A DNA stretch of 64,000 bases from Bacteroidales bacterium (GTDB taxonomy: Bacteria > Bacteroidota > Bacteroidia > Bacteroidales > G3-4614), in contig JAFYPQ010000020.1 in assembly GCA_017559955.1 (NCBI GenBank), forward strand, positions 1 through 64,000, read 5' to 3'. Below the pieces are notes generated by a model. It was not told the DNA's origin. It did not search any database and worked only from the letters and a program-made list of their open reading frames with translations. Position 1 is the stretch's first letter. Each line of letters opens with the position of its first letter. This document shows positions 52,595 to 54,908 of the stretch, piece after piece. The position numbers and the translations under genes are program-made.

Positions 52595-52611
52595 TTTTTA
52601 TCGGTTTTTGT

Positions 52612-52642
52612 TTGCGAGTTACGCTCATTGTTGTTACCTTTG
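52612..52642 (+). promoter_or_regulatory. Promoter of tRNA-Lys
   Basis: TTG (52612-52614), 20 bases, TACCTTTG (52635-52642), the same -7 octamer as tRNA-Met. Leader of about 18 bases. Confidence 0.65.
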
Positions 52643-52666: not shown

Positions 52667-52739
52667 GACTCCGTAGCTCAGCTGGTAGAGCAAATGACTC
52701 TTAATCATTGGGCCGAGGGTTCGAATCCCTCCGGGGTCA
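52667..52739 (+). tRNA. tRNA-Lys (CTT)
   Basis: 73 bases with a full cloverleaf. Acceptor GACTCCG pairs with CGGGGTC (one T-G pair), discriminator A. The anticodon stem is AATGA/TCATT with loop CTCTTAA, and the T stem is GAGGG/CCCTC. CCA is not encoded. Its last 20 bases are partly duplicated at 52958-52981. Confidence 0.95.
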
Positions 52740-52744
52740 CTTTT

Positions 52745-52771
52745 GAGCAACCAAATGGTTGCTCTTTTTTT
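52745..52771 (+). terminator. Terminator of tRNA-Lys
   Basis: GAGCAACC (52745-52752), loop AAAT, GGTTGCTC (52757-52764), T7. Confidence 0.9.
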
Positions 52772-52846
52772 ATGTCGGGATTCTCACGGAAAAGTTAACT
52801 CACAGACAGATAGCGGTCGAAAGGCTTCGCACTTTCTCCGTCTTTA

Positions 52847-52936
52847 CTCCGTCGCATAGAGTACTATGCTCCCCATTTTAAAGCACGGATTAACATTTAG
52901 TTAATCCTATTTGCTTCGCTAATACCTTAAAATGCC
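52847..52936 (+). repeat. Structured element, copy A
   Basis: Helix 0: GCATAG/CTATGC (52854-52859 with 52864-52869). Outer helix: CATTTTAA/TTAAAATG (52874-52881 with 52927-52934), enclosing hairpin 1, GGATTAAC/GTTAATCC (52887-52894 with 52900-52907), and hairpin 2, ATTTGC/GCTAAT (52909-52914 with 52918-52923, one mismatch). Together they form a three-way junction behind a leading hairpin. Copy B keeps every helix with altered bases. Confidence 0.7.
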
Positions 52937-52957
52937 TTGATTTTTGTTCCACAAAAA

Positions 52958-52981
52958 TTCGAATCTTTTCTCCGGGGTCAC
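52958..52981 (+). repeat. Duplicate of the tRNA-Lys 3' end
   Basis: TTCGAATC, five bases, then TCCGGGGTCAC. In the tRNA the same two blocks (52720-52727 and 52730-52740) are two bases apart. The twelve bases CTCCGGGGTCAC are identical at 52729-52740 and 52970-52981, 241 bases apart. No tRNA body precedes this copy. Confidence 0.85.
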
Positions 52982-52986
52982 GGTAT

Positions 52987-53012
52987 AAGCTGCACATTGT
53001 GCAGCTTTTTTT
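52987..53012 (+). terminator. Terminator behind the duplicated tRNA end
   Basis: AAGCTGCAC (52987-52995), loop ATT, GTGCAGCTT (52999-53007), T7. It occupies the same place relative to the duplicated tRNA end as 52745-52771 does to the real tRNA, with unrelated stem bases. Confidence 0.85.
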
Positions 53013-53030
53013 GTATCTGTCGGGATTGCC

Positions 53031-53119
53031 CTCCGTCGCACAGAGCACTGTGCTCCCCACGCTGTGGCACAAATTGACATTTAGTCAATTTTATTTGCTT
53101 CGCAAATGCCTTGCGTGCC
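53031..53119 (+). repeat. Structured element, copy B
   Basis: Helix 0: GCACAG/CTGTGC (53038-53043 with 53048-53053). Outer helix: CACGC/GCGTG (53058-53062 with 53113-53117). Hairpin 1: AAATTGAC/GTCAATTT (53071-53078 with 53084-53091). Hairpin 2: ATTTGC/GCAAAT (53093-53098 with 53102-53107). Against copy A, one pair in helix 0, three in the outer helix and three in hairpin 1 change on both sides with pairing kept. Confidence 0.7.
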
Positions 53120-53145
53120 TCCGTCGCACAGAGCACTGTGGTGCC
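53119..53145 (+). repeat. Structured element, partial copy C
   Basis: CTCCGTCGCACAGAGCACTG followed by TGGTGCC: the leading segment and helix 0 of copy B, then divergence. Confidence 0.65.
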
Positions 53146-53272
53146 AAATATATATTGGGCCAATTAGTCTAATTAGTCCAATATTCCTCACTCTTAAAAA
53201 ATATTGTAGGAAACTTTATATTTCTCAATCGTTTGTTACTATATTTGTACAAAATAGATTAAACAACATATT

Positions 53273-54628: not shown

Positions 54629-54654
54629 GAGATACAACCTTATATCGCAAAAAC

Positions 54655-54688
54655 AAATGGCAGCCGTTTCTCAACGACTGCCATTTTT
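54655..54688 (+). terminator. Terminator of the M20 peptidase gene
   Basis: AAATGGCAG (54655-54663) pairs with CTGCCATTT (54678-54686), with CGTT/AACG continuing inward, then a T run. Confidence 0.85.
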
Positions 54689-54908
54689 AATTTAACCTTA
54701 AATCTAATACTATGAAAAACATTACAAATATATGTTGTAGTTTGATAAGTTTTATTTACAATATAGTTAATAATTGTTAATTATACTATCTTTTGTAGTA
54801 GTTTTTAATAATAATCGTATTCAATACTACATTTTACAACTTTTTAATTCGATTTTATTATATTTTATAGATATCCCCAATGCAGAGCTACATCTTAAAT
54901 ATGCAAAT
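54689..54908. other. Spacer with a 22-codon reading frame
   Basis: AT-rich spacer between the M20 peptidase and the PCMD gene. Bases 54690-54711 (TTAACCTTAAATCTAATACT) look like a standard Bacteroidales gene leader and run into ATGAAAAAC. That frame (54712-54780, MKNITNICCSLISFIYNIVN then NC) stops after 22 codons. It may be a decayed gene start or a very short membrane peptide. Nothing else is seen. Confidence 0.4.

Follow-up and report, generated by a model that had tools for sequence, protein, structure and literature searches.

Two families of small structured DNA repeats behind a tRNA-Lys gene of an uncultured Bacteroidales bacterium

The rtT repeats (rttR), which lie behind tyrTV of E. 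coli and its relatives, have so far been a curiosity of enterobacterial tRNA-Tyr operons, and in E. coli the rtT RNA is believed to be freed by tRNA processing when transcription reads through the tRNA. In E. coli K-12, tRNA-Tyr tails, counted from where tyrV begins, are found at 66, 244, 422 and 600, a period of 178 bp, and the structured body has a stem that abuts the tail. An ‘rtT RNA 175 bp VNTR’ is listed in Salmonella (PMC2658671). These repeats are the closest known architecture to a unit, termed U, that we describe here behind tRNA genes of a Bacteroidales genus. Both are of similar size, contain the last ~20 bp of the tRNA in each unit, have a structured body with a stem next to the tail, lie in tandem and vary in number; tandem units each with a copy of the tRNA 3′ end, as in rtT, are found for U at tRNA-His of genome G002 and at tRNA-Lys of genome G004. 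U differs in that it matches neither Rfam RtT, at E values up to 2–5, nor any Rfam family, in that it starts with an intrinsic terminator, and in that it stands behind four tRNA genes, not tRNA-Tyr, in another phylum. Direct repeats of a tRNA 3′ end at both ends are also shared with elements integrated into tRNA genes by tyrosine recombinases; U, however, is ~166 bp long, with no room for an integrase gene.

A second group of known systems concerns repetitive extragenic palindromes (REPs). In the CGTC-tagged REPs of Di Nocera et al. (2013), an unpaired CGTC (or TGTC/CCTC) stands at the foot of an extragenic hairpin with a 4-nt loop, an 8–9 bp stem with A-T as first and second pair, and a CCA tail (PMC3733652). 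They are recorded in Bacteroidetes, CGTC-1 dimers are inserted in palindromes in H. neapolitanus, and there is no dedicated transposase (PMC3733652). The four-helix element of the present locus shares with them the unpaired CGTC at the foot, the 4-nt loop and a dispersed, extragenic, multi-copy distribution, but its stem is 6 bp and starts with G-C, its tail is TCCCCA, a 60-nt three-way junction follows, and it has 11–25 copies per genome. GTAG REPs and REPINs accompany REP-associated tyrosine transposases (RAYT, TnpAREP) of subclass 2.4/group 4 (PMC6006769). A RAYT of this kind, whose ORF contains a REP, is present in the genus together with GTAG REPs elsewhere, and the RAYT of G004 has the features given for subclass 2.4 (PMC6006769); the four-helix element, in contrast, has its own stem without a GTAG foot, the GTAG belonging to the surrounding REP and missing from copies that lie elsewhere, and is not the cognate REP. 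TnpAREP genes of subclass 2.6 in Bacteroidetes are flanked by ‘atypical secondary structures’ with extra genome copies (PMC6006769). Set against the written description, the element shares the phylum and a non-canonical REP fold with extra copies, whereas the RAYT here is subclass 2.4-like and the element was not seen to flank any subclass 2.6 gene. Finally, REP-targeting insertion sequences (PMC1525189) likewise insert into REP palindromes; here the inserted element is gene-less and 90 nt long. No earlier description of either family was found in the literature searched, which lay largely outside subscription journals; the sequences of both are new, although in kind they come close to repeats already known.

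Layout of the tRNA-Lys locus

The window, the whole stretch of 64,000 nucleotides analysed, comes from an uncultured gut Bacteroidales metagenome-assembled genome (MAG; G000, 1.9 Mb, 86% complete). Judged by the neighbouring M20 peptidase, its closest relatives are MAGs, most of them of ruminant-gut origin. A preliminary description had seen here a single unit (tRNA end, terminator, TGTCGGGATT and a four-helix element) present twice, and all four parts were located as described. They do not form one unit, however, but belong to two superimposed families of small gene-less structured DNA repeats, and we consider it probable that the locus is a palimpsest of the two: U, with its structured element X, and the four-helix element. 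The features are listed below; R1 and R2 are the covariance models of the four-helix element and of X, respectively, and the boundaries of the four-helix copies were placed by cmsearch.

52611–52614 and 52635–52642, + strand: TTTG and TACCTTTG, Bacteroidetes-type promoter of tRNA-Lys (sequence compared with the consensus)
52667–52740, + strand: tRNA-Lys (CTT) (ARAGORN; Rfam RF00005)
52729–52740 and 52970–52981: tRNA end CTCCGGGGTCAC, two copies, the first being the end of tRNA-Lys (CTT)
52745–52771, + strand: terminator T1, GAGCAACC/GGTTGCTC plus T7 (sequence; same type in G002, G003, G004 and G006)
52773–52782 and 53019–53028: TGTCGGGATT, two copies (sequence)
52779–52846, + strand: 5′ half of X, GATTCTCACGGAAAAGTTAACTC...CTCCGTC (R2 match window 52779–52966, E 1.9e-8)
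52847–52936, + strand: four-helix REP-like element, copy A, inserted in X (R1, 104.7 bits; X without copy A in G004 and G006)
52937–52966, + strand: 3′ half of X, hairpin TTTTTG..CAAAAA, closing with GAATC of the tail copy (R2 match, A4/A5 structure)
52958–52981, + strand: displaced tRNA-Lys tail copy, TTCGAATC...CTCCGGGGTCAC (sequence comparison)
52987–53012, + strand: terminator T2, AAGCTGCAC/GTGCAGCTT plus T7 (sequence; the last tail is followed by a similar terminator in G002, G003 and G004)
53019–53030, + strand: TGTCGGGATTGC, joined to copy B and probably left over from a second X/U unit, as its left end (by comparison with GTCGGGACTCTC abutting the element in G004)
53031–53118, + strand: four-helix REP-like element, copy B (R1, 95.6 bits)
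53119–53145, + strand: third copy, truncated to the leading hairpin (R1, 22.7 bits, E 0.0023; sequence)

The duplication takes in more than the last 12 nt of the tRNA and reaches back to the T-loop (52958–52981), and the sequences of T1 and T2 are unrelated. The ~65 bases from TGTCGGGATT to copy A and the ~30 bases after copy A are the two halves of X, interrupted by copy A. Both copies A and B fold better than their dinucleotide shuffles (z about −4, none of 200 as good). Faulty assembly, which would have undone the preliminary description, is excluded as the source of the two copies, because the layout recurs in several independent genomes of other species (L035, L033 and L156); the G004 copy sits inside a 97-kb contig of a 99%-complete genome. 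Between the repeats and the genes (53155–53185) lie short TTAGTCTAATTAGTCCAAT-type repeats, which are found at many intergenic sites of the genus.

The four-helix element and its insertion contexts

The four-helix element is ~90 nt long, dispersed, extragenic and multi-copy. A DNA search of G000 alone found about ten further copies, and R1, built from 12 copies, was run on eight genomes of the genus: six have 11–25 copies each, and the other two, both 99% complete, have none. Among 247 Bacteroidales genomes of 173 genera, searched under stricter filters, neither R1 nor R2 matched any genus but this one. No overlap with an ORF of at least 120 aa was seen in the 85 copies analysed, and no Rfam family fits the element or X at permissive thresholds. 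An unpaired CGTC tag is followed by a 6-bp hairpin and the three-way junction (60 nt); CTCCGTC adjoining GCACAG AGCA CTGTGC occurs in nearly all copies, together with the tail TCCCCA. Across 73 distinct copies, 93.5% of cells pair and 22 of the 31 pairs show two-sided changes. The covariation score is 0.357, compared with 0.156 for shuffled alignments and 0.05–0.08 for slid partners, numbers that overstate independence, given related copies and an alignment fitted to the structure; the fold itself is scarcely in doubt in view of the slid controls. The covariance-model search for homologous copies with covariation, set beforehand as the check on the preliminary description, thus came out positive, and the view taken there, that the fold is selected and not a mere duplication, is supported.

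At least 26 of the 85 copies interrupt GTAG-type REP palindromes at the apex, in both orientations. In one orientation, the junctions read GTAGGGACGTGNC/element/TGCCACGTCCGC; on the opposite strand, they read GCGGACACAC/element/GTGTCCCTAC or GCGGACGTGGCAGGCCTA/element/TCCCTAC. The remaining contexts include nesting of one copy within another (CTCCGTCGCACAGAGCACTG-attcc/element/CCATTTTAA), tandem arrangement and composite repeats, and flanks recur among copies. The orthologous sites of three G000 copies (L007, L004 and L002) are empty in sister species, and at tRNA-Lys of G004 and G006, X is found without a four-helix insert. At some sites, the inserted segment exceeds 90 nt and is a composite edged by AACTAACAA repeats, so that the exact mobile unit is uncertain; the L005 site of G005 retains ‘AAAATGCGCTTATTCGC’, which fits deletion as well as insertion. 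The inserted composites at L004 and L007 (contigs C39 and C34 of G000) are bordered on both sides by AACTAACAACT-type repeats, which are common between genes in the genus.

Stable RNA folds, extragenic position and covariation would also be expected of a structured regulatory RNA, such as a 3′ UTR stabiliser or terminator, duplicated by chance. We regard this as very unlikely: copies occupy REP apices in both orientations and nest within one another, are missing from complete sister genomes and leave orthologous sites empty, and no Rfam match was obtained. The reading that fits best is a REP-like, CGTC-tagged mobile DNA repeat that inserts into hairpin loops. The earlier suggestion of a REP-like mobile hairpin therefore holds for this element; the tRNA part is a separate family. 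The expectation that copies would often lie next to tRNA ends fails here, since only about ten of more than 100 copies have a tRNA neighbour, and holds for X.

RAYT genes were found in four of the six carrier genomes (G000, G002, G004 and G006) and in neither of the two non-carriers; none was detected in carriers G003 (84% complete) and G005 (96%). In G004, filled and plain REPs sharing ~60 bp of right flank lie close together and adjoin the RAYT gene (MKKLPQRKTPRAQWIEYNTG..., NHFH, with a REP inside its ORF). Its relatives in G000, G002 and G006 each have their own GTAG REP sequence; that of G000 (L031, contig C24, 1246–1803, − strand) has GTAGGGACGCAA-type REPs around and within the ORF. No RAYT gene flanked by the four-helix element outside a GTAG REP was found, and a RAYT dedicated to the element was rejected as a candidate, the RAYT of the genus being flanked by GTAG REPs and not by the element as such. 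Each subclass of the element keeps its own orientation and junction, while the sequences outside the REP differ, which suggests that, after a few insertions, the composite of REP and element moved as a REP.

Unit U and element X behind four tRNA genes

U is a gene-less unit of ~150–170 bp, made up of a tRNA tail from the T-loop, a terminator and X. Every unit opens with an intrinsic terminator, located between the tRNA and X. X was found behind tRNA-Leu(TAG), tRNA-His(GTG), tRNA-Lys(TTT) and tRNA-Lys(CTT), usually with the terminator of the tRNA on one side and a repeat of the same tRNA's tail on the other. R2 detected 13 copies in six genomes, all 13 adjoining tRNA-His, -Leu or -Lys. In the structure of X, 97.8% of cells are paired, 13 of the 30 pairs show two-sided changes, and covariation is 0.321 versus 0.128. 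The closing stem pairs with the tail and varies with the tRNA: it is GGCTC/GAGCC at His and Lys-TTT (with a single base missing in the tail half of the G006 Lys-TTT copy), GACTC/GAGTC at Leu and Lys-CTT, and GATTC/GAATC at Lys-CTT of G000, where the T-arm of the tRNA has the same change. The unpaired stretch CTCACAGAAAAGTTA.CTC is conserved. In G004 and G006, which lack copy A, the first terminator is followed by GACTCTC(A/T)CAGAAAAGTTAACTC...CTCCGTTAGTTCG TTGATTTTTGTTACACAAAAATTCGAGTCC and then by the second tail. The tail 12-mer occurs in the genus only at the tRNA-Lys locus, in 1–3 copies in seven of the eight genomes and in none in G001; the reversed 12-mer, used as a control, had no matches in same-genus genomes.

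Sister species differ in whether, and how often, U is present. At tRNA-His, G003 is empty (tRNA, terminator, ATATCTTACCCCCTACTCC), G004 has one unit (tRNA, terminator, X, tail, terminator, then the same ATATCTTACCCCCTACTCC) and G002 has two units with a period of 167. At tRNA-Leu, U is present in G002 and G003 and lacking in G004–G006, and G000 and the second G002 unit retain only the left end of X. The arrangement of modules at tRNA-Lys(CTT) changes from species to species: in G000, unit 1 contains A and unit 2 contains B; in G004, where there are three tails, an empty X is followed by B and then by A; in G002, A is followed by a 2-kb insert with a fibronectin-type lipoprotein gene and then by B; and in G003 and G005 B-type copies replace X. 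A plain tandem duplication of the tRNA 3′ region with chance hairpins and no mobile element could account for tandem units that share tail, terminator type and GTCGGGA.TCTC. It is scarcely credible, as both elements occur at unlinked loci with covarying folds, their dispersed copies contradict it, and the two terminators of the window are unrelated in sequence.

At L033 (2680–4800), ~2 kb with an FN3-type lipoprotein ORF (431 aa) lies between two tRNA-Lys tails, which suggests that the site can hold cargo. At L034 (360–1796, − strand), a 478-aa ORF, which by eye resembles a PD-(D/E)XK nuclease family protein, takes the place that tRNA-Lys and the repeats have in relatives, upstream of the M20 gene. 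Behind two different tRNAs of G006 (L208 after 1650, L236 after 1625), the second tail is followed directly by GGGGCTGTGTCAAAATG... and GAGGCTGTGTCAAAATG..., which look like an insertion-sequence end or a replaced terminator.

The preliminary description had also offered a scar of a small element that used the tRNA end as attachment site. This fits U with X and not the four-helix element, two parts that it had not separated. On another reading, U is what has remained of larger integrative elements (phage, ICE or IME) for which tRNA T-loops served as attachment sites, with X as the joined attP arms once every gene had gone. Integration by tyrosine recombinases leaves direct repeats of the tRNA tail, the L033 insert lies between two such tails, other cargo lies upstream of the same gene at L034, and only left ends of X are left behind tRNA-Leu in G000 and in the second G002 unit. 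Such an origin is nevertheless unlikely. By eye, no recombinase- or integrase-like ORF was recognised in the flanks of the U copies examined, and the same fold of X, near-constant in length at four tRNAs with matching tail and terminator, would be hard to reach by independent deletions. X was also not found in viral contigs with the patterns tried: of four pattern scans of IMG/VR, three were empty and the fourth gave ten short matches that R2 did not confirm. An integron-like attC was rejected separately, since by eye the boxes in X do not fit RYYYAAC/GTTRRRY.

Pairing in DNA or RNA, and a proposed history

G-U pairs account for 2.7% of paired cells in the four-helix element and 0.3% (1 in 309) in X, compared with 10% in tRNA stems of the same genomes. 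This scarcity, together with the terminator ahead of X, favours pairing maintained in DNA, with selection acting on DNA pairing in both families; gene conversion between related copies could alternatively lower the G-U share. If, instead, X and the tRNA tail formed a functional RNA freed from tRNA read-through transcripts by tRNA-processing enzymes, as with rtT, the fixed place behind four tRNA genes, the conserved unpaired stretch and the covariation would be expected, as would a closing stem that takes in the tRNA tail in an rtT-like architecture. We think this rather improbable, because an intrinsic terminator separates the tRNA from X in every unit, X is missing at orthologous tRNAs of sister species, and the single G-U among 309 paired cells contrasts with the share in tRNAs. 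Of the tRNA-linked structured RNA first envisaged, the tRNA linkage stands for U and X and falls for the four-helix element; an RNA function is not supported, because an intrinsic terminator starts each unit and G-U pairs are rare.

We propose that the two families, as DNA repeats, were superimposed in two steps. In the first, U would have arisen at the tRNA-Lys 3′ end, at the T-loop, by insertion or by tandem duplication, restoring the tRNA and leaving a displaced second tail, like rtT behind E. coli tRNA-Tyr; its copy number would then shift by recombination between tail repeats. In the second, a ~90-nt REP-like element favouring the apex of DNA hairpins would have entered X, giving copy A, and taken over the inside of a second unit, giving copy B. 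The REP-like element probably spreads as folded single-stranded DNA, in part perhaps as a passenger within GTAG REPs mobilised by the RAYT (TnpAREP) transposase. The enzymes, the single-strand step and a fold acting as DNA, not RNA, are all elements of this proposal. A bolder and tentative idea, which we hold to be possible though doubtful, is that U represents a new class of minimal tRNA-targeting mobile elements, gene-less and about 166 bp long, which would enter the T-loops of several tRNA genes. The matching tail and terminator would keep the tRNA intact, and the closing stem of X, matched to the T-arm, would be recognised as folded DNA by a trans-acting recombinase.

U provides a family unrelated to rtT and structurally parallel to it, behind four tRNA genes of another phylum, and sister species with 0, 1 or 2 units at the same tRNA make the origin and function of tRNA-tail repeats testable. 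Small folded elements that enter the apex of other REPs, and one another, bear on how CGTC-type REPs spread without a transposase of their own. Elsewhere in the window, positions 54647–54722 (− strand) match Rfam RF04319, the Bacteroidetes FopS sRNA family, with 64.2 bits against a gathering score of 56.
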